A DNA stretch of 64,000 nt from Methanocorpusculum sp. (GTDB lineage Archaea; Halobacteriota; Methanomicrobia; Methanomicrobiales; Methanocorpusculaceae), in contig JAFQBW010000009.1 in the NCBI GenBank assembly GCA_017399555.1, positions 1-64,000 on the forward strand, read 5' to 3'. Below are positions 3,795 to 22,907 of this stretch, one piece after another (positions within the stretch are counted from its first letter, which is position 1; the number at the start of each line of letters is the position of its first letter). The notes below the pieces were generated by a model. The model saw nothing but the letters and a program-made list of their open reading frames with translations, was not told where the DNA came from and did not search any database. Made by a program: the position numbers and the translations under genes.

Positions 3795-3804
3795 GGTAAC
3801 TCCA

Positions 3805-5101: not shown

Positions 5102-5109
5102 AACTACTC

Positions 5110-5724: not shown

Positions 5725-5734
5725 TGTTATACTC

Positions 5735-5911: not shown

Positions 5912-5920
5912 AATGACCTC

Positions 5921-6616: not shown

Positions 6617-6627
6617 GATACACCTCC

Positions 6628-7581: not shown

Positions 7582-7614
7582 ATTCGCACCTCTACAATGA
7601 TTTACAGGAAGCTA

Positions 7615-8676
7615 TCACTGTGCTTCCCTATGTTTCTCCATAATCTCCCTAAACTCCTGTCGGGAGATTTGCCTACTCTGAACCTTGAACCGCAACTCTG
7701 CCAATTCCTCCGGGGTAAGTCTGCCACTCTTGTCACTACCAGCCGCAGAAGGTGCAGTCGTGGTAGAAGCAGGACTGACAGACGCTACGTCCGAAAGGTC
7801 TGTTTGCACACCCGCTTTGATACGATTCAGTACATCAATGATGTAATCAGCGTTCCCCTGCCTATACTCAGCCGCTACCAACTGTCCAATAAGCACCCCT
7901 GATTTGCCACCTATCGGAGATGCCATTGTACGTTGATATTCGGGAGTCTTTTGTAGCTGTTCAAGGTCAGGATGCGCCGCAAGAATAGCAGCCTTGGTTT
8001 TCTCCAGCTTACTATAATGCTCACGGTCATCCAGTTCCTTGAATCTGGACTTTAGTGTTTCTTCCTGTTCAGCCAGCTTGCGCTGGAACTCTGCATGGGA
8101 TGCGTTCTGTTGCTGCCGCATAGTCTTTATAACAGGACCGAGCAGCTTCTTTGCATCATCCATATCAATACTACGGAAGTCAACACCGGAGTTCTTTAGG
8201 AGGTTTTCAAGCTCCTGTTCATCATGCAAAGCCCGTAAGTCATCAGGTATCTTACGAGCCTCTTCAAGTTGCTTGCGTGTTTCTTCAAGTTCGCGCAGGA
8301 GTTCTTCATTCTTACGGCGGAACTCGTCTTCCTTGTTATCACGAGGTTCGGGTTTGGGTTCTGTCTCACCGGCCATAGCCTTACCCAACAAATCCTCGTA
8401 ATCTTTTGGCAACGGTATATTCACCACAGGTGCTGTGTTTACCGTTGTACTGGTATCCGGGGGTGTCACCTCCGATACATTGTCAGAAGGCTGGTCATTA
8501 GGAAGCGATGGAGGGGGGGTCAAAACGATGTTATTCACCGCACTATTAGCAGTCGATGATGTGTCGTCACTTCCATACAGATGTGCAAATTCCTGCTTCA
8601 GTTTAGCCGCATCCCCCGCTGCAAAATGTTGACGGCGAGGCTTCGGTCTCACTTCCCCGGTCTGATTTATATTCAT
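7615..8676 (-). CDS. Capsid scaffold protein
   Basis: 353 residues from ATG 8676 in an AGAGGGTAGCAGG leader. The protein is highly charged and helical with a long coiled coil (residues about 110-225: repeated E/K/R/L heptads such as EELLRELEETRKQLEEAR), an N-terminal basic region RPKPRRQHFAAG and a basic, helical C-terminus (RQISRQEFREIMEKHREAQ) of the kind that binds coat subunits. This is the classical scaffold profile, and the gene precedes the capsid gene directly. No protease domain is seen. Confidence 0.75.
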   Translation of the reverse strand: MNINQTGEVRPKPRRQHFAAGDAAKLKQEFAHLYGSDDTSSTANSAVNNIVLTPPPSLPNDQPSDNVSEVTPPDTSTTVNTAPVVNIPLPKDYEDLLGKAMAGETEPKPEPRDNKEDEFRRKNEELLRELEETRKQLEEARKIPDDLRALHDEQELENLLKNSGVDFRSIDMDDAKKLLGPVIKTMRQQQNASHAEFQRKLAEQEETLKSRFKELDDREHYSKLEKTKAAILAAHPDLEQLQKTPEYQRTMASPIGGKSGVLIGQLVAAEYRQGNADYIIDVLNRIKAGVQTDLSDVASVSPASTTTAPSAAGSDKSGRLTPEELAELRFKVQSRQISRQEFREIMEKHREAQ

Positions 8677-8694
8677 CCTGCTACCCTCTTTCAA

Positions 8695-8970
8695 TTAGTG
8701 GCCGCGGCTTCGCAGTGCTATAATCTTGTCCCGAATCAACTCCATACCGCTAACGACACCCTGTTTGTGAACCGCCGCCATACGGACATCGGGATTAAAT
8801 ACAGCCGCTCTGGAAGCCTTTGTAAACTCTTCATCTGCTACTTGCACCAAATAAGTAATATAGTCAACAAGCGCAGAAAGTCCCTCGGAATTGGTACTCA
8901 GCAGCTTCAGTCGAGATTCATCGAAAGAAGCTGCTGAAGTACCATCGACATACTGCCTATTTAGGGACAT
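8695..8970 (-). CDS. Small helical head-region protein
   Basis: 91 residues, read from ATG 8970, which overlaps the end of the preceding 55-residue gene by 14 bp; this start is preferred over the longer frame to 9060 because that would overrun the small gene. Two helices dominate (LSALVDYITYLVQVADEEFT and ELIRDKIIAL). It sits directly ahead of the scaffold. Function not recognised. Confidence 0.5.
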   Translation of the reverse strand: MSLNRQYVDGTSAASFDESRLKLLSTNSEGLSALVDYITYLVQVADEEFTKASRAAVFNPDVRMAAVHKQGVVSGMELIRDKIIALRSRGH

Positions 8971-9124
8971 ATGTAAGCCCTGTAATACGGGAACGCTGGT
9001 CTCCAGAACCACCAGTTCTGCGGATTGTACCACCCACGGGTTTAGGCACAACCGTTCCATTGGCTGAAGACTTCGGACTGGGGGCGCGTATTACTCTCGG
9101 CTTTCTACAGGCACCGCATCCCAT
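8957..9124 (-). CDS. Small basic 55-residue protein
   Basis: ATG 9124 has a strong ACGGAGG seven to twelve bases upstream, and the frame ends at 8957. The product starts MGCGACRKPRVIRAP, is rich in Gly, Arg, Pro and Ser and lacks hydrophobic segments. The start codon lies 5 bp from the stop of the upstream 65-residue gene, and its end overlaps the next gene. The Cys-x-x-Cys pair at residues 3 and 6 could bind metal. Role unknown. Confidence 0.55.
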   Translation of the reverse strand: MGCGACRKPRVIRAPSPKSSANGTVVPKPVGGTIRRTGGSGDQRSRITGLTYVPK

Positions 9125-9128
9125 AGTA

Positions 9129-9326
9129 TTAACCTCCGTAACGTAAGTCGTCTATTTTTGCAAAACCGGGCCGCCGTTTACGCATCTCACAGCGGTGATT
9201 CTGCGCTTCAAATTTACGTTCCATATCACGTTCTGTCAAGAAGGCATCCCGCTCACACGAATTGAAGTCCCCCGCAACACGCATAAACGGCCACTCTGGT
9301 CTTTGTTTTACCGGACCTGTGTACAT
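9129..9326 (-). CDS. Small charged 65-residue protein
   Basis: ATG 9326 lies behind AAGGAG. The product is charged and polar (MYTGPVKQRPEWPFM... with ERDMERKFEAQNHRCEMRKR) and probably helical in its second half. It is part of a run of short genes between portal and scaffold that probably encode minor head proteins. No family recognised. Confidence 0.5.
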   Translation of the reverse strand: MYTGPVKQRPEWPFMRVAGDFNSCERDAFLTERDMERKFEAQNHRCEMRKRRPGFAKIDDLRYGG

Positions 9327-9335
9327 ATAAACTCC

Positions 9336-9812
9336 TTACGGATTCACCGGAGCGGGATAATACGCCGGAATAAGATAACCCCCAAAATTCAGATAAGCAT
9401 CCGGGCGACCCAATATCTGGTCACGAGTAGCCCCAACAATTATGGTAGGTACATCCGTATTCTCAGACGTGACAGGAACTGTTGCTGCAACACTAGGTTC
9501 CACAGCACCAGCTATAGCCTCCCGCATCTGTTCACAAGTGGGTATCTGCGCCCCAGCAGCATGGTCTGCGCCGTGGCAGTCTTTGAATATAGCAGCAATG
9601 TCATCGTCTGTAATATCAAGACATTCTCCCACATGAGGACAAAGTTGTTTTGCAAGAGCCTGTGCCGCAGCATCGTCAATCACTACATTATTTGTGATTC
9701 GCAACCCAGACACTTCGAGGTCCGTGGACTTACCATTTATCAATACAGGGTTGATAATAGTGGGGTCATTCCACGTACCGCCATCAAACGGACCAGTAGG
9801 CATACAAGACAT
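9336..9812 (-). CDS. Hypothetical virion-region protein
   Basis: 158 residues, ATG 9812 behind AGAAAGGT. The N-terminal part is Gly/Pro/Asn-rich, the middle is acidic helical (ALAKQLCPHVGECLDITDDD) with four cysteines, and the C-terminus is Pro/Tyr-rich (GGYLIPAYYPAPVNP). The Val/Thr-rich linker between suggests two small domains. It could be a head fibre or decoration protein, but nothing specific is seen. Confidence 0.45.
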   Translation of the reverse strand: MSCMPTGPFDGGTWNDPTIINPVLINGKSTDLEVSGLRITNNVVIDDAAAQALAKQLCPHVGECLDITDDDIAAIFKDCHGADHAAGAQIPTCEQMREAIAGAVEPSVAATVPVTSENTDVPTIIVGATRDQILGRPDAYLNFGGYLIPAYYPAPVNP

Positions 9813-9813
9813 T

Positions 9814-10278
9814 TTACCTTTCTCCTATAAAAAGTTTTGACTTCCAAGGAATTTCAGACTTTGAATAGGTACGCAAGTAAACCCTTGCATTACCCAAAGC
9901 TGTACCATCGTTCATCGTGAAACAGTAAGACCCCGGAATATCCAAGAACAGAATGTTGTGATTCTTAGATATGCCAATAGCACACCCATTCACGCGCAGT
10001 GTTTCACGCTCAATCAAAGAAGTCTGATATTTATTGAGGTCGAAGATACGACAATCTGCGGGTTCGTCCTTCAGAATATCCTCGGAGAAAAGTAGCATCT
10101 GAAGACAAGCGGCCTGTTCTACCTGAAGTTCTGTCTTATCCGCACGAGCTTTGTAATCTTGGAATCCAAAACCCTGCAACATAACAACATCACCCGGATG
10201 TACGTGAAAGAACGCACTATCCATAGCTGCTGAAATGGGAGAAAACAGCGGGACGTATATGGTTTTATCAATAGCCAT
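9814..10278 (-). CDS. Beta-rich virion-region protein, paralogue-like to next gene
   Basis: 154 residues starting at ATG 10278, two bases after the previous stop, behind AGGGGC. The layout resembles the gene just upstream: an ILFLDIPGSYCFTMND segment matches in style the neighbour's LMIAVPGIYELELEE, and both contain an early HPGDVVMLQGFG / VPGQVVLIDAYN motif followed by an ERETLRVNG / ERMTLGGSS block. The two are probably diverged duplicates with a small beta-sandwich fold, possibly head decoration proteins. The similarity is read by eye. Confidence 0.45.
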   Translation of the reverse strand: MAIDKTIYVPLFSPISAAMDSAFFHVHPGDVVMLQGFGFQDYKARADKTELQVEQAACLQMLLFSEDILKDEPADCRIFDLNKYQTSLIERETLRVNGCAIGISKNHNILFLDIPGSYCFTMNDGTALGNARVYLRTYSKSEIPWKSKLFIGER

Positions 10279-10280
10279 AG

Positions 10281-10844
10281 TTATGCCCCTGTTGCGATTA
10301 CAGTATTCATAATCCCAGCAAAGTATTCTTTGGGTAAGTATGAAAGTATGGTAGCCTCCCATGCGAGATACTCAACCTCCATCGTACCAAGCATATCTGC
10401 TTCTTCAAGTTCCAACTCGTAGATGCCGGGTACAGCAATCATAAGCTGAAGTCTGGATTGAGATACATCGGCCCGCTTTATCAGAGACCAATGCTCACTG
10501 CTACCACCCAGAGTCATACGTTCCCTGAAAGTTATCTTACCGTCAGAACCAAAGGCATGGTCAAACGCACACGGGTCACAGTTATCACCAGCTATAGGAC
10601 CGAAGTTAGACTTCACAATCCTGTTCACAAAAATGTGATAATCTTGTGGCATATTGTACGCATCAATAAGTACGACCTGTCCCGGAACTACAGTAAAGCT
10701 GGGAGAGAAAATAGTACCGTGTGGGGTATCCGGGCAGAACAATATGTTTTTGCCGGGAGTCGGTACCATCACACCCCCGGTTACAGCAGCACAAGGATTG
10801 CTCTGCATGGCATATCCTGTCTGGATGTCACTGCAACGTCTCAT
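10281..10844 (-). CDS. Beta-rich virion-region protein
   Basis: 187 residues from ATG 10844, with GGAGG just upstream; the longer frame would place the ribosome site inside the gene. It has a Cys-rich early region, a VPGQVVLIDAYN motif, a CDPC pair, and the ERMTLGGSS...VPGIYELELEE pattern shared with the next gene. Together these suggest a duplicated pair of structural proteins. No enzyme motif. The stop is 2 bp from the start of the paralogue. Confidence 0.45.
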   Translation of the reverse strand: MRRCSDIQTGYAMQSNPCAAVTGGVMVPTPGKNILFCPDTPHGTIFSPSFTVVPGQVVLIDAYNMPQDYHIFVNRIVKSNFGPIAGDNCDPCAFDHAFGSDGKITFRERMTLGGSSEHWSLIKRADVSQSRLQLMIAVPGIYELELEEADMLGTMEVEYLAWEATILSYLPKEYFAGIMNTVIATGA

Positions 10845-10845
10845 A

Positions 10846-11082
10846 CTAACCTCCAATCAACCAGTAGCCAAACACGCCGAGTATGATGCCATAAATCACA
10901 CCCCGTACAGAGGCGCAGCACCAACAAGGTTCGTCCATCCAAGGAATGGGCCAGAACGCCCAGCACCATGCGTCATAAAACCTGCTGGGAGCTTTCTCAG
11001 ACCCGTCACTGTTGGTAGGGTGGCACCAGTTAATATGGTCAATGAAAAAAGCCTTAGCTCTTTTCCACAGGTTCTTCCACAT
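10846..11082 (-). CDS. Small membrane-anchored protein
   Basis: 78 residues from ATG 11082, which has GGAGG nine bases upstream inside the end of the previous gene (29 bp overlap). The protein is Trp- and Cys-rich (WCWAFWPIPWMDEPCWCC) and ends in a hydrophobic segment (VIYGIILGVFGYWLIGG) that would span the membrane. It may be a virion or membrane-contact peptide; function unknown. Confidence 0.45.
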   Translation of the reverse strand: MWKNLWKRAKAFFIDHINWCHPTNSDGSEKAPSRFYDAWCWAFWPIPWMDEPCWCCASVRGVIYGIILGVFGYWLIGG

Positions 11083-11371
11083 CTTCGTGGCCTCCAAGCT
11101 GGAAGATGACATTGACCTTATCATACATAAGAACAGCCAAGCCCACAAAAGCTCTCCACAAGCGGCGATTCTTCGGAGGAGTGATGATATAGGGGTCAGC
11201 CCAATACACGCGCTTCTGATTACCGATGTACCCACCATCACGGAAATAGGACTCGCTGGTTCCGGTCTTTACGGTGAATCCACCGTCCGAGTTGACACTG
11301 GTAACGGTACCAGTACCCAGACCCATGACAAACACAGAATCGCCCAAGTTTACAGGATAACCGTCAAGCAT
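11054..11371 (-). CDS. Hypothetical protein after portal
   Basis: 105 residues, ATG 11371 behind AGAGGT. A short beta-barrel-like N-terminus (GDSVFVMGLGTGTVTSVNSD, residues 10-29) resembles SH3-like or KOW-like turns; a helix LWRAFVGLAVLMYDKV and an acidic tail follow. It lies between portal and the small head genes. Function not recognised. Confidence 0.45.
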   Translation of the reverse strand: MLDGYPVNLGDSVFVMGLGTGTVTSVNSDGGFTVKTGTSESYFRDGGYIGNQKRVYWADPYIITPPKNRRLWRAFVGLAVLMYDKVNVIFQLGGHEDVEEPVEKS

Positions 11372-11383
11372 GTTCTGTACCTC

Positions 11384-13309
11384 TTACATATTACCAGCGG
11401 CTTCCTGTGCTGGCATTGAAGGTTCTGCCGGACCCGGAGCCGCCATCCCGGTAGGGCCGGGTGTTTGTGGTCCAGCCTGTGACAGTAGTTCCGATGGAAC
11501 ACCCATATTTCCAAGAACATTATTTAAGGCCCATGTCAAGATGGCTGCACCATTTGGCATGGCAGTCAACTGGTTCCCCGCAGCAGCAGTCAGTTGCAGA
11601 ATCTCGTAACTGTTCTGTCTATCTATTTCACGCTGCAACAAGCCAGTAGAACCCTGTGCCAATACCTTACAGTCACCCTTAATAGACTCATCACTGTGAT
11701 AAACCATATTATAATTGTATAGTAGTTGACCCATCGGCTCAAATACGAAATGGTCTATATTACCCATAGCGGCCTTGATAGACTTGGTGGCATTGCCCTG
11801 AAGCATAGCTGCACCACGGAAGGTTCTATTCACACCAGAACCCTGTGCTGTACCATGTAAGGCTGCGGGTATGTTGGATATGCGGTCAACCAAATCCATG
11901 AAGTATTGGAGAACCTGCATGTACTGTCCCATAACACTCGGTATAGAATAAAATCTCAATGCGGGTGTGTTTGTACCTATCTCCGAATCTGCAAGATAGA
12001 CAGTATTAGGTATGAGCTTACCCAAATCCTCGTCTGTCATATACTTGCTAAGTCTGGCATAATCCGCTTCAGTAATAGGTCCAGATGCACTGGATGCGTT
12101 AGATATGAGATACCGCAGCGTTGTAAGATAACAACGCTCCACATCCCGTATCCGCTGTGGAATACTGAAACTGGGTATGCGGTCATGTGTCTTGTAGAAA
12201 CTCGCCGTGTGTACAGGACGGATGTTAAGATTAGGATTAGGTGGAACCACAACCTGTACCGTGATACCATTTATCACGGTAATCATAGCATTATAGAACT
12301 GAGTATCTTCTACATTGCGTATGTGATATTCTTTCAACTCTTTACCACTGAAGTACCCATAGTGGATAAGCACATCCACTGTAGCCGAGCAGTTAGCCCA
12401 CATGGCAAGCTGGTCGTCCGGTTGGTCTGGATTGGCGGACATCCACTTGAAGTTGTAGTCATAGCCTTCTGTCCCCTTCAACACTTCCATAATGTTGGAC
12501 TGGATATAACTACGCATCTGTGCGGCTTCCAGCAGCTTTTGTCTGGTCCACCGCTGCCGGATGAATATACCAGTTCCACGCTGTGTATCAGGACTATCAG
12601 GTGAATACCAGAAGTCCCAAGGAGACACACTATAAAACTCGTAGAAGGTTTCAACCTTGGTGTGCAGTTTGTCTCCACTCCACTGCAAGCGGGGGCGGCG
12701 TACTGGTACAGGTCCATGTAGTACAGCAAATGGATATACAGTAAAGTCGGTGGAGAAACCAAACATGGCAGTATTCCAGCGTCCTTCGAGACACTGGTCA
12801 ATCATTAGTTTCTCCATAGCTTCAGCAGCCCGTTTGGCGTGGTCGTACTCCTTACGCAACATAGTACGCTTCAGATTATAGACCAACGCTTGCAAGTCTC
12901 CAGAATAATTATTCTGAAATATCTCTTGCTGTATTTGTGCCAGTATCTCATACTTGGCAGATTCTGATAGCGTGGGAATAGGAGTCGGGCTGATAGTAAA
13001 TGGCAGAGTAGATGCTTGAACCAGTGTCTCCATCAGGAAAGACTGCACAAGTCCGGCTTTCATAGCCGACAAGTTCACATAAGCATCCACACCAATTTCA
13101 TCAGCAATCTCTTGGTCTCTACAGGAAAGATTACCATTGAACTGGTCATAACACTCTCGTAGTACAGTCTTTAATGACCTGTCACCAACCAGCTCCTGTG
13201 ATTGCCAACGTACAGCTTCATTAAACCGCTGAATTGTTATATTCGCAAGCGGGTCTCGTGACTTCGGCGGTACTTCAACAGTACGTGCATATTCATATAC
13301 GTCAGCCAT
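11384..13309 (-). CDS. Portal protein
   Basis: 641 residues from ATG 13309, coupled to the terminase stop by a TGATG overlap, with AGAAGG upstream (a GTG at 13312 is the only other start). Its length matches the large portals of T7/N4-like podoviruses. The N-terminal half is mixed alpha/beta; the stem-like helical region and a Gln/Ala/Pro/Met-rich C-terminal tail (residues about 605-641) follow. Position immediately after TerL is diagnostic. The portal forms the dodecameric DNA channel at one capsid vertex and is the docking site for the terminase. Confidence 0.75.
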   Translation of the reverse strand: MADVYEYARTVEVPPKSRDPLANITIQRFNEAVRWQSQELVGDRSLKTVLRECYDQFNGNLSCRDQEIADEIGVDAYVNLSAMKAGLVQSFLMETLVQASTLPFTISPTPIPTLSESAKYEILAQIQQEIFQNNYSGDLQALVYNLKRTMLRKEYDHAKRAAEAMEKLMIDQCLEGRWNTAMFGFSTDFTVYPFAVLHGPVPVRRPRLQWSGDKLHTKVETFYEFYSVSPWDFWYSPDSPDTQRGTGIFIRQRWTRQKLLEAAQMRSYIQSNIMEVLKGTEGYDYNFKWMSANPDQPDDQLAMWANCSATVDVLIHYGYFSGKELKEYHIRNVEDTQFYNAMITVINGITVQVVVPPNPNLNIRPVHTASFYKTHDRIPSFSIPQRIRDVERCYLTTLRYLISNASSASGPITEADYARLSKYMTDEDLGKLIPNTVYLADSEIGTNTPALRFYSIPSVMGQYMQVLQYFMDLVDRISNIPAALHGTAQGSGVNRTFRGAAMLQGNATKSIKAAMGNIDHFVFEPMGQLLYNYNMVYHSDESIKGDCKVLAQGSTGLLQREIDRQNSYEILQLTAAAGNQLTAMPNGAAILTWALNNVLGNMGVPSELLSQAGPQTPGPTGMAAPGPAEPSMPAQEAAGNM

Positions 13310-14895
13310 CACATCACCCTTCTTAAAATTTTTCTACGTTGGGATAGCTGCCTTATAATATGTGAAGCCTTGCGTTCATCATGTACATCCTCACGAACTA
13401 TATATAACGCCCCGTACTGTACGGCATCCGCTATATGTGAGTGTGAATTTTTTTCCGGCTTCGCATCATAGGCTGCACTCACAGAACCCATTATCCGTAA
13501 ACGCTTATACCGATACCCACCCTGAAACGCTTTAATTGTCAAGTGGCAATGTGGTGATATTACCAACCCACCGATACTTTTATTCAGTAATTGGTCAACC
13601 GCACGTATGCGAGTCTTGGGGTCGTTGGTTTTGGGCATGTGAACCTGTAACCCTTTCTGTTCCAGATGCGTACTTGGAGACAAACCAGTATAAGCATCCT
13701 TGGCGTTAGCAGGGTCACAGGATACGATATAGTTACACTTCTGGTATTTATGAAGTAATAATGGTAGCAGTGCTTGTTCTACGAAAGCCTCCAACCCCAT
13801 ATCCTCTCCATAAAGTTCGTCAAGTATAGCCCACCGTCCCTGTACCATCTGATAGAACACAGCGGCTGGATGGATGCCAGATGTATCATATCCTATAATA
13901 ACTGTGGAGTGTAATACAGGTTCTATCTCCGACTTAGCCACGTGTATATCATACTTGAACATAGGCCATACAGGCTTACCATCCCGCATGGGTACGTCAA
14001 GCATACAAAACAAAGAGTCAATCTTGTCAGTACGTCCTTCCAATTTCCAAGCAGCTATCTGATTCTTGTAGTAATCCATGCCCTTGTCATGCAAGAATGT
14101 ACGCTGTGCTGCTTCTGTCCACTCATTAAAGTCATCCGGTTTACGTTTTGCACCAAGATTATACAGGTTCTCTGCATCAGGATTAACCTCATATTTCACG
14201 TTACCAAGGTCATCCTCTATCTTGAAAGCTGCTGGAGGTTGTTCAAATATAGCCCAGTTCTCTTCAGGATTAGCTTTCATGTTAAGAAGGAAGTGGCCCT
14301 GTGGTGGCTGGTTAGAGTCAATCAATACTCCTGCATAAGAACAACCACCCATATTCTCTGTAGGGTATCGTCCGACACGACCCATCACTGCGGTCAGGAC
14401 TTCATAATCAATGGACGTTGCTTCATTGATAATAGCAAATGTCCAGTTGGCCGACTTGATTTTCTCGGCATCCTCAGCCGCCTGAAGAGCCTGAAGCACA
14501 AACTCTACCTGACAAATGGTACCCATCCCCGGTTGCCACGGCTCTCCCATGCGGATGTAATCATAGGGACCATCACCCACAGGGAAGCGATACAAACCAT
14601 GAATAGGCGCACCACCCTGCCGAATAGTACCATATTGTGCCGGAAAAACCTCCATAATGCTTCCTCTGGTCGTGGAAGCCAATTCCGGGTATGTGCCTCG
14701 CACTACGCCAATTCGTGTCCTACGAATCCCGTCAGAGGATGGAGCTTGTGACAGCGCGTAAAACTTGGCATCGTTCATAATCATACAGGTCTTTCCAGAA
14801 CCATATGGTCCGAACACCAGCTTCACAAACGCATCCGAGTCGTGAAAAGCCAAACCCGTCTTTGTTGGCACATAATTAAAATCATCTACTAACAT
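13309..14895 (-). CDS. terL: Terminase large subunit (ATPase-nuclease)
   Basis: 528 residues. The Walker A motif GPYGSGKT is at residues 29-36 and a Walker B-like segment WTFAIINEA is in the centre, followed by a coupling region. The C-terminal nuclease domain shows IGYDTSG with the first acidic residue and IVSCDPANAKDAY with the second, as in RNase H-fold terminases. The enzyme drives DNA into the procapsid and cuts concatemers. It starts in an ACGGGGTAGCACC leader 4 bp after the TerS candidate. Confident call. Confidence 0.9.
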   Translation of the reverse strand: MLVDDFNYVPTKTGLAFHDSDAFVKLVFGPYGSGKTCMIMNDAKFYALSQAPSSDGIRRTRIGVVRGTYPELASTTRGSIMEVFPAQYGTIRQGGAPIHGLYRFPVGDGPYDYIRMGEPWQPGMGTICQVEFVLQALQAAEDAEKIKSANWTFAIINEATSIDYEVLTAVMGRVGRYPTENMGGCSYAGVLIDSNQPPQGHFLLNMKANPEENWAIFEQPPAAFKIEDDLGNVKYEVNPDAENLYNLGAKRKPDDFNEWTEAAQRTFLHDKGMDYYKNQIAAWKLEGRTDKIDSLFCMLDVPMRDGKPVWPMFKYDIHVAKSEIEPVLHSTVIIGYDTSGIHPAAVFYQMVQGRWAILDELYGEDMGLEAFVEQALLPLLLHKYQKCNYIVSCDPANAKDAYTGLSPSTHLEQKGLQVHMPKTNDPKTRIRAVDQLLNKSIGGLVISPHCHLTIKAFQGGYRYKRLRIMGSVSAAYDAKPEKNSHSHIADAVQYGALYIVREDVHDERKASHIIRQLSQRRKILRRVM

Positions 14896-14899
14896 GGTG

Positions 14900-15418
14900 C
14901 TACCCCGTTATATCTATGACATTATTATGTGACTGCGCCACAAGGTGCGCTAACTTCTTGTTGGTTGGTAACTTGGGTATATTAAACGCGATGTTCACGT
15001 TTGTCTGCACTGGACTGGTATCCTGCTTTGGTTCTGCGGGTGCAGCAAGCCCAGCACTTTTCATAAGTATCTCAAGGAAGCTGATAAGGTGTTTGTCATC
15101 CAATTCTCCAGAACAAGCTCGTGCGTAAAGTCGTTCCTGCAAATCACCAACTATAGCTTCTGCCCTAAGCCTATGTCCTGCAAAAGGACCTAACTCTTTC
15201 ATACGAGCAAATTCAGCCCGTACCAAGTCTATGAATACAGGAAGTTTGGTAAGCGTTACAAACTCTGATTCCGTAAGATTGTAAGACTTGGCTATATCTT
15301 CAGCGGAGTATGCAGAATTAGCATTTGGCTGTGTCATCATAGCAATGTCACGTGCTATCATAGGCCACTGATGCTGCATCTTTAGCAACACAGGAGAAGT
15401 ATCGGTAGGTGTGGTCAT
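14900..15418 (-). CDS. Terminase small subunit candidate
   Basis: 172 residues directly upstream of TerL. The central part is helical with a possible helix-turn-helix (residues about 38-65: AEDIAKSYNLTESEFVTLTK), as in small terminases that bind packaging sites. A long helix (LRAEAIVGDLQERLYARAC) could form the oligomerisation stalk, and a Pro-rich linker leads to a C-terminal tail. The role (DNA recognition and TerL loading) is inferred from place, size and HTH pattern. Confidence 0.65.
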   Translation of the reverse strand: MTTPTDTSPVLLKMQHQWPMIARDIAMMTQPNANSAYSAEDIAKSYNLTESEFVTLTKLPVFIDLVRAEFARMKELGPFAGHRLRAEAIVGDLQERLYARACSGELDDKHLISFLEILMKSAGLAAPAEPKQDTSPVQTNVNIAFNIPKLPTNKKLAHLVAQSHNNVIDITG

Positions 15419-15422
15419 AATA

Positions 15423-15863
15423 CTAATCCTCGCGTTTCGGGGGATTTACTTCCCACAACCACTTGTATATCGAATTAACAAGCTGACCGTGCAAATAAGC
15501 CATGTGTTCTTCTATTTCACGGTCTGCATATATATTTAATCCAGCCATATTAGTATATTTAATGATAAAATGAAATACTTCATGCGCTATGACTTCCATT
15601 GTCCAGTCATCTTTCAGTAGATGTATCTCTCCCACAACATTAACTGATATATCTGGAATGTATAAACCATCAGTATATCGTAGTACAAACTTTGGTGTAC
15701 AACAGCAGCCTCCCATGTCTGGGTCGCCGTCACCTTCTGGTATATTCGCTATAAGAGACTCAACATCTTTCCATAGGTAAACAGTTACATAACGGTCACT
15801 ATCCGGTAAATAAAACCGTGTATGTGTGGCCTTGCTCAAATCCTTGTTTTCCTTAATCGCCAC
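15423..15863 (-). CDS. HExxH metallopeptidase-like protein
   Basis: 146 residues, GTG start at 15863 in a GAGGGTAGCACC leader. An AHEVFHF motif puts H94, E95 and H98 in a zinc-metallopeptidase (gluzincin/SprT-like) arrangement, with E116/E117 in the following helix possibly supplying the third ligand. A CCC cluster sits near residues 53-55. It lies between the terminase genes and a terminator, downstream of the DGR region. It could process a virion protein or a host protein; substrate unknown. Active-site geometry is seen, family is inferred. Confidence 0.55.
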   Translation of the reverse strand: MAIKENKDLSKATHTRFYLPDSDRYVTVYLWKDVESLIANIPEGDGDPDMGGCCCTPKFVLRYTDGLYIPDISVNVVGEIHLLKDDWTMEVIAHEVFHFIIKYTNMAGLNIYADREIEEHMAYLHGQLVNSIYKWLWEVNPPKRED

Positions 15864-15880
15864 GGTGCTACCCTCGATTA

Positions 15881-15917
15881 AAAATTAAAAGGCGCGGAGA
15901 TAATCTCCACGCCTTCA
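15881..15917 (-). terminator. Rho-independent terminator, minus strand
   Basis: On the minus strand a 12-bp stem (AAGGCGTGGAGA with TCTCCGCGCCTT, one G-U pair, 3-base loop) is followed by TTAATTTTT. It ends transcripts from the DGR/fibre block before the metallopeptidase-TerS-TerL genes, implying read-through control or a separate promoter for packaging genes. Confidence 0.8.
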
Positions 15918-15946
15918 ATATATAGCAAGCTGTGCCTGACCGCAAC

Positions 15947-16258
15947 CTACATAGTCGTGGTTTCTTTATGCACATGCTCTACAAGTTTTTTCAGTTCGCC
16001 CTTCTCATCCGGGGTAAGATTCTCCTTACGGATGCGGGAGAACAGGTCACTCAATGCAAGAAGCATATGACCGAACTCTTGCTTGGCTGGGATGTTATAC
16101 TTCTCAGCGTTGTAAGCACTCAGCTTCTTGTATTTCATCCAACCTTCACACTCGTCAGCAACACGTTTTGCGGCTTCCTTCGGACTGGTAGGCGAGGTGT
16201 CATCCTTACCTTCAGTCATGATAGGATTGCCATTGCTGTCTATGGCTAAGTATCTCAT
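15947..16258 (-). CDS. Hypothetical helical protein
   Basis: 103 residues, ATG 16258 behind AAGGGA. Mostly helical and charged (MKYKKLSAYNAEKYNIPA, LLALSDLFSRIRKENLTPDE, GELKKLVEHVHKE), no membrane segment. It is followed by the terminator at 15.9 kb and preceded by a hairpin at 16.28 kb, so it may be expressed as a short unit. Function unknown. Confidence 0.5.
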   Translation of the reverse strand: MRYLAIDSNGNPIMTEGKDDTSPTSPKEAAKRVADECEGWMKYKKLSAYNAEKYNIPAKQEFGHMLLALSDLFSRIRKENLTPDEKGELKKLVEHVHKETTTM

Positions 16259-16279
16259 GGTAATTCCCTTATATATGAA

Positions 16280-16302
16280 GTGGCCCGGCTAGGCCGGGCC
16301 AC
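16280..16302 (-). terminator. GC-rich hairpin, possible minus-strand terminator
   Basis: A perfect 10-bp inverted repeat GTGGCCCGGC/GCCGGGCCAC with a 3-base loop lies just after the stop of the 297-residue gene. On the minus strand it is followed by TTCATATAT, a weak T-rich tail, so it may attenuate rather than fully stop late transcription. Confidence 0.55.
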
Positions 16303-16309
16303 AGTAAGA

Positions 16310-17203
16310 CTAGGCCGTAGGAGCCGTTGCGGTACGTGTGGGCGTATAGTTGGTCAGAGCAAAATTCTGCAACTGAGCCACAGCAGCATCGGCTATGCGG
16401 TTGCCACGCAGGATGTCAGACAGTTCTTCCACCTTACGATGCAAGCGGGCATTTTCATCTTCCAGACGATTGGTAGCGATGTAGCTACGCAGTTCAGCAA
16501 TCTGCTGAGTTGTGGAGCAGCAACAATCATCAATCTTCTGTCCAATACGACATTCCATAGCAGCGCGGGCATTTTCCTGCTTCAGAGCTTCGAGTTCAAT
16601 CTTGGCACTGAGGTTGGTATTGACATCACGCACGTCACGGCTCAGGCCACTGATTTCACACAGAATAGTGGACATCTGAGCTTCCATCTTGCAGCAGCAA
16701 GCAGAAACCATGTCAGCAACGCGGTCGCCCTGATTCCGTACAGAATCAATTACGGAAGCGATAATGGAACACAGTTTGGTGTCGAGGTTAAGGAAACCTG
16801 TGGCAGATTCAGACTGCGCTGCGTAGATGCGGTCGTAAAGACCAGTAATCTGAGAGCAGTTACTACCAGCAGCTTCCGCAAAAGCCTGACGGTTCTGCGG
16901 ACTCATACCGCCCCAACCGCCATTGGCGAACAGGAACAACAGAAGGAACGCCCACAGGAAAGCACCATCACCGCCGAAGCCATTGGCATAGCCCTTATCC
17001 TTACAGAGAGCCAACAGACCGGGCAGGTCCATGCCCTTATTCCCCTGCATGAGAGCAAGCAGGCCAGCAATATCGCCGTTCATAGATGTATTCTCCTGAG
17101 ACGCCTTATGGTGATAATGATGAACTTCCTCTTTCGCTTCGGGCATACCGAATACCATACCCTTACCAGAAAATTCACCATCCATTACTCGATAGCCACC
17201 CAT
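16310..17203 (-). CDS. Cysteine-rich coiled-coil protein with hydrophobic segment
   Basis: 297 residues, ATG 17203 behind GGAGG. The N-terminus carries His/Glu-rich EEVHHYHH; a hydrophobic GAFLWAFLLLFLFANGGWGG segment (about residues 79-98) could cross or insert into a membrane. A long helical region with CCC clusters (SACCCKME, DDCCCSTT) and a leucine-rich coiled coil (residues about 245-270) follows. Virion proteins with a membrane segment and coiled coil are often ejection or capsid-internal proteins; here it lies just after the DGR cassette. No recognised family. Confidence 0.45.
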   Translation of the reverse strand: MGGYRVMDGEFSGKGMVFGMPEAKEEVHHYHHKASQENTSMNGDIAGLLALMQGNKGMDLPGLLALCKDKGYANGFGGDGAFLWAFLLLFLFANGGWGGMSPQNRQAFAEAAGSNCSQITGLYDRIYAAQSESATGFLNLDTKLCSIIASVIDSVRNQGDRVADMVSACCCKMEAQMSTILCEISGLSRDVRDVNTNLSAKIELEALKQENARAAMECRIGQKIDDCCCSTTQQIAELRSYIATNRLEDENARLHRKVEELSDILRGNRIADAAVAQLQNFALTNYTPTRTATAPTA

Positions 17204-17235
17204 TTAAGGGCCTCCAATAAACAAGTGTTGTGGTT

Positions 17236-17601
17236 TTACAAACCGGGCATATAGCCCGTTTCCTCTGCCACATCAGAGGTAGGCACGGTCGGAACGGATG
17301 TCAAGATGCTCTCAACCTCTTCAACCGAAAAACCGAGCCGGAAAATTTTGGCTTTTTCATTTTCCAAGAGTTCATACTGGATGTACTTGGCAGGAGCTTC
17401 GGCAGACTCCTGTTCCACTTCAACTTTGTGCGTGGCGTCAACAATACCCTCGGCCTCACTCTCAAGTACGCCTGTAGGCAACCACATAAAACGGGAATCA
17501 AGCAGCATCTGATATTCGGGTGCCCACTGTTCAACAGGGAAATTAGCCCGAATATACTCATAATCGTGCTTGGTATTCAGATTTTTGGGAAAACCTTTCA
17601 T
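17236..17601 (-). CDS. Hypothetical acidic protein near DGR
   Basis: 121 residues, ATG 17601 behind TAGGAGG. Residues 1-45 have a compact aromatic pattern (DYEYIRANFPVEQW, MLLDSRFMWLP). The rest is acidic with Glu/Ala/Pro linkers and an FSVEEVESILTSVPTVP segment. It follows the DGR accessory candidate by 8 bp. Function unknown. Confidence 0.4.
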   Translation of the reverse strand: MKGFPKNLNTKHDYEYIRANFPVEQWAPEYQMLLDSRFMWLPTGVLESEAEGIVDATHKVEVEQESAEAPAKYIQYELLENEKAKIFRLGFSVEEVESILTSVPTVPTSDVAEETGYMPGL

Positions 17602-17609
17602 AGTGCCTC

Positions 17610-17912
17610 CTACGTAAATGTATGGTATCTACGCATGTTTTTTATGGTTGTTACAAAGGGCAGGTGGCTATCGTATTCGTTCATCTGTCGCTGCAACACC
17701 ACACTGGTAGTAAACACCACGCACTCGCGCCCGTCAAGCTCAAACTGTAACTGCATACAGGGCTTGCCGGGAGCAGCCTTGGAATCCAACATCCTATATG
17801 CTTTCACTAGTATCTCTTTACCAAATATGTCACGCATCTGCATCTTATCGCCAGACAGATTTATATCCTCTTTAGCAAAATCACTGAATCTTTTTACATT
17901 ATTTGTATTCAT
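17610..17912 (-). CDS. Candidate DGR accessory/nucleic-acid-binding protein
   Basis: 100 residues, ATG 17912 behind GGGAG, overlapping the RT stop by 14 bp and so translationally coupled to it. The product is beta-rich: an N-terminal RFSDFAKEDINLSGDKM, then strands around GKEILVKAYRMLDSK, CMQLQFELDGRECVVFTTS and a final TIKNMRRYHTF, a pattern compatible with an OB-like barrel. Similar small proteins occur beside DGR reverse transcriptases in gut phages, as far as I recall. It is a plausible stand-in for Avd, which is otherwise missing. The role in mutagenic homing is inference. Confidence 0.5.
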   Translation of the reverse strand: MNTNNVKRFSDFAKEDINLSGDKMQMRDIFGKEILVKAYRMLDSKAAPGKPCMQLQFELDGRECVVFTTSVVLQRQMNEYDSHLPFVTTIKNMRRYHTFT

Positions 17913-18951
17913 GTAATAACTCCCTCACGTGTCTAATATCTATAGATAACTTCAAATTATAACTATTGGCCCACTTTAACCAACCCAATGCACTATCTAC
18001 CTGTCCTATGAATCTAATAAAATTAGCATGTCCCTTCGCTATACTGGATTTGATATAGGTAACTCTGCGGCGGATGCGCTTGGCTGTACTCTTGCGTACT
18101 AAAATGTGTGTCTTGAAATGCCGATAACCTAAAAAATCCACACCGTGACTAGTGGGAAAATACTCACATTTACTAAAACATAAATCCAATACGTTAGTTA
18201 AAAAGTTTCTAAGCTCTATAGCTGCTTCACATAGTTTATGCTTATCATTAGAGAACAATACAAAATCATCACAGTACCTGATATAGTCTTTTATCTTTAG
18301 TGTGTGTTTAATAAATGTATCCAGTTCATTGAGGTAGATATTACCAAACCACTGTGACATCAGATTACCAATAGGTACACCCCTGCCCGGTGATAACTCT
18401 GAACAACTACTAGAACTGTCTATAATCTCGTACAATAAATCTAACACACGTGGGTCTTTTATCTTTCTACGCAAAATTGCTTTCAATCTACCATGATGAA
18501 TACTATGATAAAACTTGGATATATCACACTTCAAGACATACGTATTATGCCGAACCATACTCATGCAACGCAAGCTACCCGCGTGTTGACCCTTCTTCTG
18601 CCTACAAGCATAACTGTCATAGATGAATAACTTATCCCAATAATCGCCCAATACATTCAGAATAGCGTGATGAACTATACGGTCAGGAAAGAAAGGTAGG
18701 CTATGAATAGTACGCTGTTTTGGTTCGTGGATAATCTGGGATTTATAGGCAGCAGTCTTGTAGTTACCACTAACCAGCATGTTATGTAGCTTGTCTATGT
18801 ATTTCTCTGTGTTACGTTCAACTTTACGCACCGCACCAATCCCACGTTTACCTTTGGCAGCCTTACGCAACGCCAACCGAAGGTTATCCTTATCAACTAT
18901 CTTATCCCAGAGTTTACCGATACGTTTCATAATCGTAAATTGTGGTATCAC
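17899..18951 (-). CDS. DGR reverse transcriptase
   Basis: 350 residues from GTG 18951 (ATG 18930 is an alternative; neither has a strong ribosome site). The RT palm motifs are complete: KCDISKFY with D143, the DGR-characteristic IGNLMSQ at 194-200, and YCDD at 226-229. A thumb region with DFLGYRHF follows. The enzyme would copy the template RNA (19052-19176) into cDNA with errors opposite adenines, to be homed into the variable repeat of the receptor-binding gene just upstream. The coding sequence is more AT-rich than the flanking fibre genes, consistent with cassette transfer. Host-group II intron RTs lack the SQ form of the motif. Confidence 0.93.
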   Translation of the reverse strand: MIPQFTIMKRIGKLWDKIVDKDNLRLALRKAAKGKRGIGAVRKVERNTEKYIDKLHNMLVSGNYKTAAYKSQIIHEPKQRTIHSLPFFPDRIVHHAILNVLGDYWDKLFIYDSYACRQKKGQHAGSLRCMSMVRHNTYVLKCDISKFYHSIHHGRLKAILRRKIKDPRVLDLLYEIIDSSSSCSELSPGRGVPIGNLMSQWFGNIYLNELDTFIKHTLKIKDYIRYCDDFVLFSNDKHKLCEAAIELRNFLTNVLDLCFSKCEYFPTSHGVDFLGYRHFKTHILVRKSTAKRIRRRVTYIKSSIAKGHANFIRFIGQVDSALGWLKWANSYNLKLSIDIRHVRELLHEYK

Positions 18952-19051
18952 TGACTTTCGCTTACTGCTACTAGCCAGTGATACCCACCGCTATGTGTTT
19001 CCCCGATTGGTGAGGCAGCTTTAATGTTCAGCCTCGGTGTTAGGTCAAGAC

Positions 19052-19176
19052 TCCGAGTATCAGACGCCCCCCGCCCGCCGTTGTTCGCGTTGACGTTAGC
19101 CGACACGTTGTTCAGATTGACACAACGCGGACCACAATAGGACGAGTTATTCCAGTTGCCACCAGCGTGGAGCCGA
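19052..19176 (-). repeat. DGR template repeat (TR)
   Basis: 125 bp, matching the variable repeat at the same length. In coding orientation it contains ten AAC/AAT codons; each is changed in the variable repeat. Across the central core 15 mismatches are seen and all are A in the template. The 3' end has a GC-rich run (CGGCGGGCGGGGGGCG) and then differs from the target as TGATACTCGG versus TGAGCCTCGG, the IMH*/IMH contrast that fixes direction of transfer. It lies between the target and RT genes; the frame open through it (18948-19229) is best explained as template RNA. Confidence 0.95.
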
Positions 19177-19344
19177 GAAAGCCTCATTGGTATAACATTA
19201 AAGCTGGCTTGAAAGTTTTTAACCTCCAAGACCAGTCGAATGTAAGCTGACTTACGAAACCTGTCAAGTAATTTTTTCGTATCGCGCTCCGCGCACCGAG
19301 AAGTAGTCGAACCATTCTTACAGTAGAAAGGTCGTAAAACGCAA

Positions 19345-19376
19345 GGGAGACTTGACGAAAAGTCGCCAAGTCTCCC
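19345..19376 (-). promoter_or_regulatory. Hairpin between VR and TR (homing structure or terminator)
   Basis: A perfect 10-bp inverted repeat GGGAGACTTG/CAAGTCTCCC encloses a 12-base loop. It begins 42 bp after the 3' end of the variable repeat. In Bordetella phage BPP-1 a DNA hairpin just 3' of VR strengthens homing; the same place suggests a similar use here, at larger distance. On the minus strand it is followed by TTGCGTTTTACG, so it could also be a weak terminator of the target gene. Confidence 0.6.
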
Positions 19377-19403
19377 AGTCGTAAGCCGTATTCCGTAGGG
19401 CGA

Positions 19404-20468
19404 CTAGACGAATCGCGTCCGAGGCTCAGACGCCCCCCGCCCGCCGTGGTCCGCGTAGACGTGAGCCGACACGTAGTGCAGAGAGACACAACGCGGACCA
19501 CAACAGGACGAGTCAGCCCAGCGGCCACCAGCGCGGAGCCGATAGAGATTACCGTAAGTAGAACCATAGGCTTCCGGGTCAACAGCGGAGTTGTAAGTCG
19601 AAGAACCCCAACTAGAGCCACCAGCACCTGCCCACTCGCACCACTGCCACATAAACCCACACATATCTTCCAGACCCCAGTTGGAAATCATGCGGCGATT
19701 AGCGGTATCAACATGACCGCCCGTGGTACCCCAGTCTTTGGCCCCGGAGATAGCAGTACGGTTGTTACTGCCCCATGCGGCCACGACAAACTTGTCACGC
19801 GGGATATTGAATTTCTTGACCTTGGCAAATTCCTCGTTGAATTTTTCACCGTGGAATTTCACCGTGGATGCGCCGTCCGCACACTCGCCACCAAAGATAG
19901 AACAGAGTTTGGTACTATCATAGGAAGCCAGATAGATGTCAACCCAAATATCAGCTTCTTCAATATATACCATCCCTTCCGGCTCAGACTTGGGGCGGTG
20001 CAGCAGGTCCCAGATAGATGCGGGCAGGATGTCACCTGCCACATAAGCGGACAAAGTGTGTCCATCAATGGTACCCACATCAGCGCAGAGGCAGTGGAAA
20101 CCACCAATTTTACGGCTGTTATTAGCATTATATCCCGAAGGTGTCGTACTGTTCAAAGACAGGACAAACTCAGGTACGATACCCGTTGTGGGTTCCACGG
20201 CGTAAATGTACACATCCTTGGCCGCACGAGCGGTAGCGTTACCAACAGAGGATACATTCAGTGTCACATCGGCGTTGGTAGTGTACGACTTGCCGTTAAT
20301 CATCACGTGCAGTGGCGCGGGCAGCGTCACGGTAGTCTTGGTAACGGTAGGCCGGACAGACCGCCAGTATGTGGGGTAAGGTCCCTCAGCAACTGCCAGC
20401 GTGGTCATTATGGGAAGAGCTACCGGATTAAAGCTCTTGGTAGGTTTGTCATGCACGTAAATGCCCAT
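19404..20468 (-). CDS. DGR target: Mtd-like C-type-lectin receptor-binding protein
   Basis: 354 residues. The middle carries SRKIGGFHC, then SIWDLLHRPKS and IWVDIYLASYD, matching in order the pattern ARKVGGFHY, SLWDIKFRP and FWADIYLLG of Bordetella phage Mtd. A formylglycine-generating-enzyme/C-lectin core follows (GGHVDTANRRMISNWGLEDMCGFMWQWCEW), and the variable repeat makes the last 40 residues. The protein is probably the tip that contacts host surface receptors. It lacks the N-terminal QYRGTT pedestal domain of Mtd, which appears instead in two neighbouring fibre genes. The RT lies downstream in the same strand. Confidence 0.9.
   Translation of the reverse strand: MGIYVHDKPTKSFNPVALPIMTTLAVAEGPYPTYWRSVRPTVTKTTVTLPAPLHVMINGKSYTTNADVTLNVSSVGNATARAAKDVYIYAVEPTTGIVPEFVLSLNSTTPSGYNANNSRKIGGFHCLCADVGTIDGHTLSAYVAGDILPASIWDLLHRPKSEPEGMVYIEEADIWVDIYLASYDSTKLCSIFGGECADGASTVKFHGEKFNEEFAKVKKFNIPRDKFVVAAWGSNNRTAISGAKDWGTTGGHVDTANRRMISNWGLEDMCGFMWQWCEWAGAGGSSWGSSTYNSAVDPEAYGSTYGNLYRLRAGGRWADSSCCGPRCVSLHYVSAHVYADHGGRGASEPRTRFV
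19418..19542 (-). repeat. DGR variable repeat (VR)
   Basis: 125-bp copy of the template at the 3' end of the receptor-binding gene, ending 14 bp before its last codon boundary. Twelve codons differ from the template: ten Asn codons became Arg, Ala, Asp, Ser, His, Tyr, His, Tyr, Asp and His; one His became Arg and one Tyr became Cys. Scaffold residues between them (CGPRCV, GGRGAS) are unchanged. The positions fit the ligand-binding surface of a C-type lectin fold. Confidence 0.95.
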
Positions 20469-20939: not shown

Positions 20940-22037
20940 TTATACCTTCGCTTCCAACGCAGCAATGCGCTCCTGCAACCGCTGAAGGTCAGCAGCAACA
21001 TTATCAATGTTGACTTGCAGGTCGCTCTTGGCGTAGGTCCCCACTATAATGTACATGTAACCCTTGATAGATTGGGTCTGTACGGTGGTGATGGCGTTGC
21101 TGTAGATGGGATTACTACCACTGGCATCTAAATCAATCGTCTGATAAGTGTAAGCATTTGTACCGCTAGAACTTGACGTATCCATCATCGCAGTACCATT
21201 ACCACCGTCCCGCAATGCACCACTTGGATTTGCTTGCGCAACATCGAATTTGCGGGAACCAACATTTAACTTACCCGTTATATTCGGCAACCCCGCCTCA
21301 ATCAGGTCACCGACCGCGTTCTTGTCGATAGTACCCTCGACATGACCCGTTACCTTGGGGATGCGTACCGTACCGGCGGTGGTGTCCAACACGAACTTGC
21401 CGCAGACGCCGTAAGTAGTGACGCTGTTCTGCCACTCGGTCTCGGTGATGAACAGATTGTCATGCTCGCCAGTGTTCTTCAACTGCACCATGTAGTTATA
21501 AAATGCAGCGAAGATGCCTGTGCTGTAAATCAGCGAACCGTCAAGCAACTGGAACCCGGCACCACGGATAGGCAGCAGGGACCAGACAAGCTCACCGATA
21601 GCGCGGCCCACCACAGTAGCGTTCTCGCCACTCACATGGAGCAGACCCGTGTCGTGCATGGCATCGGATAGCGTAGTAGCGTTAGACGCGTCCAGCGTCT
21701 CTACCTCATCCGTCCAGTTCAGCGAAGACACAACACCATCAGAGACCTGAAGATTCTCACCAACTTGCAACACACCACGCTGTACAGTGCTACCTATCTT
21801 AGCGGCAATAGTATTATCAACACCAAGGGTGCCGCCTGTAACAGTGATAGCCTCACCAGCCAGCACCTTAGTAGCGGCCTTAGCCAGAGGATGACCACCA
21901 GCAGTCACACCATCCTGCACAACGACCGTATTAGTCGTTGTATCCACAGTCAACTCACCAGCAGGGCCGGTGTAGTTAGAGTGCTGCATCACCGTGCCGC
22001 GATACTGCTGCACCGGCTCTTTAGTATTACGTGCCAT
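20940..22037 (-). CDS. Tail fibre with Mtd-type N-terminal domain and collar-like domain
   Basis: 365 residues, ATG 22037. Residues about 10-50 (VQQYRGTVMQHSNYTG, then GELTVDTTTNTVVVQDG and GGHPLAK) match the N-terminal domain of Bordetella Mtd, which forms the beta-prism pedestal and trimer base. A tail-collar-like region follows (TVRIPKVTGHVEGT through KGYMYIIVGTY), and a C-terminal heptad coiled coil (VAADLQRLQERIAALEAKV). Likely a fibre subunit that joins the receptor-binding tip to the tail. The start shares its first residues (MARNT) with the next fibre gene, showing duplication. Confidence 0.75.
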   Translation of the reverse strand: MARNTKEPVQQYRGTVMQHSNYTGPAGELTVDTTTNTVVVQDGVTAGGHPLAKAATKVLAGEAITVTGGTLGVDNTIAAKIGSTVQRGVLQVGENLQVSDGVVSSLNWTDEVETLDASNATTLSDAMHDTGLLHVSGENATVVGRAIGELVWSLLPIRGAGFQLLDGSLIYSTGIFAAFYNYMVQLKNTGEHDNLFITETEWQNSVTTYGVCGKFVLDTTAGTVRIPKVTGHVEGTIDKNAVGDLIEAGLPNITGKLNVGSRKFDVAQANPSGALRDGGNGTAMMDTSSSSGTNAYTYQTIDLDASGSNPIYSNAITTVQTQSIKGYMYIIVGTYAKSDLQVNIDNVAADLQRLQERIAALEAKV

Positions 22038-22091: not shown

Positions 22092-22883
22092 TTAGTCCAT
22101 AGTACCGTAGTCGGAAGGAACGATAAGGTTGCCACTGTCGTCAATCTTGGCGTTGTTACCAGTAGCGGCCAGCTTAAGGCTGATGACCTTGCCTTCAACT
22201 TTCACACCGTCACCAGCAGTGTACACGTCAATCAGGTCAGTCACGTTGACCAGAATCTGCTTGGCAGAGCCATCAGCCAGACGGAAGTCAAAGTCAAGGT
22301 AAGTGCCAGTCAGGGTAGCAGAACCATCACCATCGGGGTCCACGGGGTTGACCGCAAGAGCCACGTTCTCCAGCATGGAGATGCTGGAGGGGATGGTCAC
22401 GGTGCCAACAACAGTCACACCGTCCTGACCGATAAGGTCCAGCTTGCCGCTGGTGGTGTCGTAAGCAAGGTCAATGTTGGCCTGAATCTTACCGTCACCA
22501 TCAAGCGACAGCAGCTCATCATTGGCCTTGACCAGAGCCGCAGCGTTACCCACGGTCAGCTTGCCATCGGTACCCACGCTCAGGCCATTGTTGACATCAG
22601 TGGACACAAGAGCCGGAACAAGGCCGGTAATAGACAGACCGATGGTAACATCCTGAGCGAGAGTACCCTCAGCACCACCGTTGACCTGCACGATAGTGCC
22701 GTCAGCAGTCACCTTGCGGGACTCTTTGGCAAGCGGATGACCACCAGCAGTCACGCCGTCCTGCACAACCGCTGTCATTTTGGTAATGTCAACGGTTACT
22801 TCGCCTACTGCCCCCGTGTAACCCGCATGTTGGTCGGTAGTACCGCGATACTGCTGGACGGGGTTGACAGTGTTACGAGCCAT
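22092..22883 (-). CDS. Tail fibre with Mtd-type N-terminal domain
   Basis: 263 residues from ATG 22883 (GGAGG upstream; the frame continues to 22898 but that would place the site inside). Residues 8-52 repeat the Mtd-type domain (QYRGTTDQHAGYTGAVGE, AVVQDGVTAGGHPLAKE). The rest is beta-repeat fibre with NGLSVGTDGKLTVGN and a final SYDLIV-type strand region. Its C-terminal modules resemble those of the 546-residue fibre upstream (IDVYTAGDGVKVEGKVISLKLA versus DIYRAGMGVKIDPDLTVSVRLA). Structural; probably part of the same fibre assembly. Confidence 0.7.
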   Translation of the reverse strand: MARNTVNPVQQYRGTTDQHAGYTGAVGEVTVDITKMTAVVQDGVTAGGHPLAKESRKVTADGTIVQVNGGAEGTLAQDVTIGLSITGLVPALVSTDVNNGLSVGTDGKLTVGNAAALVKANDELLSLDGDGKIQANIDLAYDTTSGKLDLIGQDGVTVVGTVTIPSSISMLENVALAVNPVDPDGDGSATLTGTYLDFDFRLADGSAKQILVNVTDLIDVYTAGDGVKVEGKVISLKLAATGNNAKIDDSGNLIVPSDYGTMD

Positions 22884-22907
22884 TGGAATAACCTCCAAAG
22901 TTAAGGG

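Follow-up and report, generated by a model that had tools for sequence, protein, structure and literature searches.

What kind of diversity-generating retroelement (DGR) does the virus on contig JAFQBW010000009.1, binned with Methanocorpusculum sp., carry, and what is the small gene that lies against its reverse transcriptase (RT)? We analysed the first 64,000 nucleotides of this contig (hereafter the window), which span nearly all of its 64,046 bases. An initial annotation, made from the sequence alone, had described a complete DGR in positions 17610-20468, with the variable repeat (VR), the template repeat (TR) and the RT following one another on one strand. Every part that it named was located there, and the target gene, VR, a hairpin, TR, RT and the small gene lie in this order on the minus strand (table 1). 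Based on our data, this is likely a working podovirus DGR that acts on an Mtd-type receptor-binding tip, with a protein of the oligonucleotide/oligosaccharide-binding (OB) fold in the helper role of Avd.

The TR/VR pair and the reverse transcriptase

Over 125 nt, TR and VR differ at 17 positions, 16 of which are adenines in TR (hypergeometric P = 5e-13), and between 19060 and 19176 all mismatches of TR to VR (15/15) fall on adenines. When TR was scored along the whole window at its 105 non-adenine positions, it matched itself at 105, VR at 102 and the next best place at 48, so that TR and VR are the only matches within the 64 kb. The two repeats share a GC-rich end, with non-adenine differences between them from 19059 on. 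By their sequence, these ends are a non-identical pair of initiation of mutagenic homing (IMH) and IMH* sites, putative in function.

The RT was recognised by Pfam (RVT_1, E = 8e-19) and by PHROGs (phrog_1423, E = 7e-116); a TR/VR pair together with an RT profile had been proposed as one check in the initial annotation. Broken catalytic residues had been named there as a finding that would speak against it; in the aligned motifs, the first catalytic Asp, YCDD and GNLMSQ are all intact. With an adenine-biased TR/VR pair and a DGR-type RT with intact catalytic motifs, the cassette is almost certainly a complete DGR, a judgement that concerns the DGR part alone.

The RT is 33.8% identical to brt of the Bordetella phage BPP-1 over 95% of its length, and probably starts at the ATG at 18930 rather than at the GTG at 18951. 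Its closest solved structure is 8ub7 (E = 1.9e-46), an entry titled only "Reverse transcriptase", which we take to be the BPP-1 bRT enzyme. The GC content of the RT is 38%, against 54% in the target gene, so that at least the RT may have been imported later.

Diversification among related loci

Related loci were collected by an RT-alignment scan of IMG/VR, of which the best 80 of at least 561 were kept. All but seven of these 80 loci yielded a TR/VR pair (73/80); six of the seven have less than 1 kb upstream of the RT, and the last one (L072) has 2.2 kb. After L082 and L084 were dropped as repeat artefacts, 71 loci remained for the mismatch count, in which 1330 of 1371 mismatches are at TR adenines and the VR-TR order is found throughout (71/71).

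The DGRs of the relatives diversify: three near-identical sets vary in VR at TR adenines only. Pairwise comparison of L006, L007 and L008 gave 16-21 VR differences, all at TR adenines, and no TR differences, while the controls gave 0/300 differences in the flanks and 0-1/600 in the RT. This set, the cleanest of all and represented by one row in our RT tree, is outside the RT clade of the window and has no OB gene. VR differences were likewise placed at TR adenines between L004 and both L002 and L003 (17/17), between L051 and L052 (9/9) and between L119 and L121 (2/2). The VRs are identical within the pairs L002/L003 and L053/L124, and 14 of 21 VR differences are at TR adenines in the diverged pair L118/L122; in three more pairs, L118/L120, L120/L122 and L095/L130, the sequences did not stand in register in this comparison. 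L002, L003 and L004 are near-identical, yet their TRs, which would be expected to be stable, differ at 4-6 sites.

No near-identical virus or second isolate of the window virus was found; its own DGR is probably working. Two DGRs of another RT group (L018 and L019) were met in same-genus archaeal genomes (G007 and G009), with 13/13 and 22/22 TR/VR mismatches at adenines.

The target gene and its relationship to Mtd

The initial annotation had called the target Mtd-like and the DGR a relative of that of BPP-1 in design, and both statements hold. The target carries the Pfam domain mtd_2nd (E = 4e-20), belongs with the tail protein family phrog_11262 (E = 4e-48), and aligns with BPP-1 Mtd by tblastn at 25.2% identity over residues 3-345, that is, 97% of its length (E = 2e-9). 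BPP-1 is among the seven phage records that matched the target, of 50,697 searched. As judged from these alignments, the target is homologous to Mtd and not a mere analogue.

The alignment extends into VR1 of Mtd, and the C terminus of the target has a match to the Pfam FGE-sulfatase family below the cut-off. The C terminus of Mtd is a C-type lectin, and the same VR domain is assigned to the target by homology alone. A sequence search of solved structures with the target gave no match. Mtd_N, expected on the same protein in a member of the Mtd family, was not found on the target in Pfam at E values up to 0.1; since it is present on two tail genes upstream and not on the target, the tail-attachment and the variable parts of Mtd appear to be divided among adjacent proteins.

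The BPP-1 system (mtd, bbp7/avd, TR, brt) and that of the window thus have the target-VR-TR-RT order on one strand, a homologous target, a homologous RT and a Phage_DGR-type spacer RNA in common. Unlike BPP-1, the window has no avd between VR and TR, an OB-fold gene overlaps the end of its RT, Mtd_N is placed on two upstream genes instead of on the target, and the head genes are different.

Spacer RNA and hairpins

The hairpin announced in the initial annotation is present between VR and TR, beginning 42 nt past VR. It is unusually stable (z = -5.1; 0/200 shuffles as stable), but it is terminator-like too. We regard it as a candidate IMH hairpin; a second hairpin, in the spacer between TR and RT, is better supported.

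This TR-RT spacer aligned at full length with Phage_DGR of Rfam (RF03022; 30.9 bits, below the gathering threshold of 50; E = 0.0015) and with RT-18 (RF03021; 19.7 bits, gathering threshold 41.3), both alignments including the AGUA...GAA hairpin; BPP-1 matches RF03022 at 104.7 bits. A scan of the window at the Rfam gathering thresholds came out empty. The hairpin, whose AGUA/GAA internal loop we take to be similar to the bulged-G (sarcin-ricin) motif, recurs in relatives: under a strict definition it is present in 52 of 96 upstream regions, against 0.05 expected, and by the pattern alone in 70 of 96, with 0/96 on the reverse strand. In the 53 dereplicated pattern-only rows on which pairs were counted (26 of the 96 loci lack the pattern and are outside the count, and the search pattern itself limits the letters of the innermost pair), 84.6% of the stem cells are paired, against 36-51% when the stem is slid, and the covariation score is 0.857, against a maximum of 0.303 in controls. 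Three of five stem measures beat all shuffles (0/500 as high), while both-sided pair changes (322/500 as high) and further pair types (165/500) did not.

Our model of the hairpin (R1), run against the window together with 30 more sources, matched the window hairpin, its sole match in the window, and eight loci besides, each of which belongs to a DGR; the other DGR loci supplied were not recovered, and BPP-1 had no match to it at E values up to 1. The idea that the hairpin is a new RNA was rejected, since a permissive scan matched RF03022 and RF03021; by its sequence it represents an RNA already known, in a diverged version. Of 15 sampled loci, 13 had no DGR-RNA match at gathering thresholds, so Rfam covers this branch poorly; the exceptions are BPP-1 (RF03022) and L129 (RF02921, RT-14). 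By eye, a stretch like CAAAAYAC..AACGGAGG recurs upstream of the hairpin in relatives.

A predicted OB-fold gene beside the reverse transcriptase

The small gene had been described as coupled to the RT, and the overlap of 14 nt agrees with this; what had been missed is that no avd can be recognised in it and that its family is a different one, of OB fold. The 100-aa protein is confidently predicted to adopt an OB fold, with OB topology in the predicted model. Together with six relatives it has nothing above the Pfam cut-off, and in PHROGs these proteins have weak matches alone, to families without a fitting function. A profile of the small protein had no match in a sequence search of solved structures. 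Alignment A5 of the family comprises the window protein and 33 relatives that we chose after dereplication. A hidden Markov model of the OB family did not match BPP-1 Avd even with filters off, and a relationship of the OB gene to BPP-1 avd, bbp4 or bbp3 was rejected. Moreover, no gene stands where BPP-1 has avd: the VR-TR spacer of the window, 241 nt long, is too short for the 128-aa Avd.

Members of the OB family are present in 59 of the 80 related RT loci, directly after the RT in 56; in the other three (L114, 4093-4416; L125, 4381-4710; L128, 4457-4759), they lie between VR and TR, where BPP-1 has its avd. A query with the small protein, which retrieved close relatives only, had the RT just upstream in 17/17 loci. 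In L012, a contig of a Desulfovibrio metagenome-assembled genome, the reading frame of the RT runs on into the OB gene, so that the OB part is joined to the RT C terminus, the only fusion found. Our tree comprises 80 RTs and places the window in a clade of 70 rows (support 98/92), 60 of which have the OB gene. BPP-1 groups with L129 and ANMV-1 stands beside them, all in unsure placements on long branches; L129, which has no OB gene, is the sole locus that BPP-1 Avd matches (E = 1e-5).

Three phage records have an OB homologue: two DGR viruses, vir525 and ANMV-1, and LCBv1. In vir525 (BK063673; host listed as Methanosarcinales) we found the best-ranked RT among phage records (47.5%), the best match to the target (36.8%) and an OB gene directly after the RT (41.5%), but vir525 has contractile-tail genes, including tail-sheath and baseplate genes, and other head genes. 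The archaeal virus ANMV-1 has the same VR-TR-RT-OB gene order, with a different target, adtA, and with the gene after the RT annotated as hypothetical.

It is unlikely that this is an ordinary BPP-1-type DGR in which a tail-module gene came to lie after the RT by chance and takes no part in retrohoming: 51 of 54 dereplicated OB sequences are directly after the RT or fused to it (L012), the other three being between VR and TR, and the OB label changes 8 times on the whole RT tree, against 16.4 in shuffles, a clustering to which near-copies also contribute. Several observations nevertheless weigh against a helper role, three of them in favour of a chance neighbour: about one quarter of DGRs have no accessory-gene homologue, according to PMC7290462; the OB gene is absent from 21 of the 80 loci, two of them cut off close to the RT; and LCBv1, a 6-kb archaeal virus with a protein-primed polymerase and no annotated RT, has an OB homologue (31.3 bits against the profile). 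Additionally, the fold list of the 100-aa protein contains toxin B subunits, and a figure legend of PMC4372165 marks an ORF of ANMV-1, not matched to a gene here, as Avd.

Even less probable is a protein that serves mainly as the single-stranded DNA-binding protein of viral replication and was inherited alongside the RT: the OB-type fold and the homologue in a protein-primed DNA virus are compatible with it, but the gene is part of the tail module, a long way from where this virus has its replication genes, and is fused to the RT in L012. A decaying remnant that has lost diversification, to which the single isolate and an AT-rich, maybe recently imported RT could point, is very improbable, given the open reading frames (ORFs), the intact RT motifs, a TR equal to VR at all non-adenine sites but one of 125, and relatives that diversify.

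We infer that the OB protein is most likely an accessory that stands in for Avd in this RT clade, with nucleic-acid binding as its predicted activity. By analogy with BPP-1, the steps would be as follows. The transcript would comprise TR followed by its structured spacer on the 3' side, an RNA of the Phage_DGR type with the AGUA/GAA hairpin at its end; the RT would misread adenines as it copies the TR RNA, and VR would then give way to the cDNA, so that the attachment protein receives a changed tip. The OB protein would bind TR RNA, single-stranded cDNA or both, in the helper role of Avd. ExoI, a single-stranded DNA exonuclease, inhibits BPP-1 DGR activity by a nuclease-independent route, as described in PMC12875486, so that a helper that binds single-stranded DNA or RNA is plausible.

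In the literature searched, mostly partial texts, we found no OB-fold DGR accessory, the OB folds mentioned there being those of other proteins; earlier work may have recorded the gene. According to PMC10053308, Wu et al. 2018 proposed as accessories HRDC, MSL and one protein outside Pfam and CDD, and this third protein may be the OB family.

Table 1. Location of the DGR components and of other features (window coordinates unless a locus is named)
Feature	Position	Strand	Remarks
Target gene, 354 aa, VR at C terminus	19404..20468	-	Mtd homologue by sequence; mtd_2nd domain at residues 43-154
VR	19418..19542	-	16/17 differences from TR at TR adenines
TR	19052..19176	-	direct repeat of VR at lag 366
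RT, 350 aa as listed	17899..18951	-	Pfam, PHROGs, motif alignment
100-aa protein, predicted OB fold, proposed Avd-replacing accessory	17610..17912	-	overlaps RT end by 14 nt
TR-RT spacer RNA	18944..19060	-	aligns over its full length with Rfam RF03022 (Phage_DGR), below threshold
Hairpin with AGUA/GAA internal loop	18945..18984	-	just before probable RT start; covarying in relatives
Hairpin between VR and TR, 14 bp, 4-nt loop	19345..19376	-	IMH-type hairpin or terminator
Sigma-70-like promoter match before TR, TTGACA-17-TACATT	19239..19267	-	weak: 9 matches in region against 8.7 in shuffles
Tail gene with Mtd_N, upstream of target	20940..22037	-	Pfam Mtd_N, E = 3.5e-8
Tail gene with Mtd_N, upstream of target	22092..22898	-	Pfam Mtd_N, E = 1.1e-6
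121-aa gene	17236..17601	-	similar-looking genes after RT in some relatives (by eye, unscored)
OB-protein relative in 6-kb archaeal virus with protein-primed polymerase	L049 3016-3294		

The virus and its host

The window contains podovirus-type genes for a head-tail adaptor, an internal virion protein, a major head protein and a terminase, and no exact terminal repeat was found on the contig. The initial annotation had spoken of a lytic-looking podovirus: the head genes are indeed podovirus-like, whereas a lytic life style is unproven, no integrase having been recognised by PHROGs among 49 ORFs of the window, a scan that left many small ORFs outside. Phage records gave weak matches, most of them to proteobacterial phages, with identities of at most 32.0% for the large terminase subunit (TerL) and of at most 27.2% for the portal among the 25 of 34 matches listed. 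BPP-1 is absent from the TerL matches (20/20 records) and from these 25 portal matches, in agreement with the apparently different phage lineage named in the annotation.

The closest viruses are 12 IMG/VR contigs, with TerL identities of 67-72%. The RT and the target were not seen in the fetched parts of these contigs; the window RT is 3.0-4.1 kb upstream of TerL, and 5 of the 12 alone (L032, L033, L035, L042 and L043) were fetched that far. The 121-aa gene that follows the OB gene is probably tail-linked and outside the DGR machine. Two further genes were noticed, one of 2632 aa at 54607-62505 with LPD38 and LPD23 domains, perhaps for a giant virion protein, and one at 42666-43613 for a protein with a Lar restriction-alleviation domain.

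An archaeal host on the evidence of the bin alone was rejected, as the bin also holds bacterial-type contigs. In the three of 66 other contigs checked we found a bacterial-type RecJ (C1), a bacterial-type CCA-adding enzyme (C65) and an archaeal RecJ (C2), both bacterial-type matches scoring just under the model cut-offs. An archaeal 16S gene was matched in 7 of 17 same-genus or same-order genomes (two loci were checked against all of Rfam), and the genome of the bin itself had none. The codon use of the virus differs from that of the three sampled bin contigs, which are themselves mixed, and positions 1-20000 and 44001-64000 of the window had no match in 24 same-genus genomes. The virus contig may be misbinned. 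The head genes suggest a Gram-negative bacterial host, and an archaeal podovirus is a possible alternative.

Implications for DGR accessory proteins

With its Mtd and brt homologues, the cassette is a real relative of the BPP-1 system, set in another podovirus backbone. It adds a further member to a known type of DGR, and its OB-fold companion sets its clade apart. We lean slightly towards the view that a large DGR clade, which includes archaea-assigned viruses and bacterial contigs, has swapped Avd for a dedicated OB protein acting with the RT on TR RNA and cDNA. Small, well conserved, confidently folded in prediction and once fused to the RT, this protein is a candidate for the missing accessory of DGRs without Avd, and makes the role of Avd, and its possible substitutes, directly testable. 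If this is true, two unrelated helper folds would serve one and the same step of mutagenic retrohoming.

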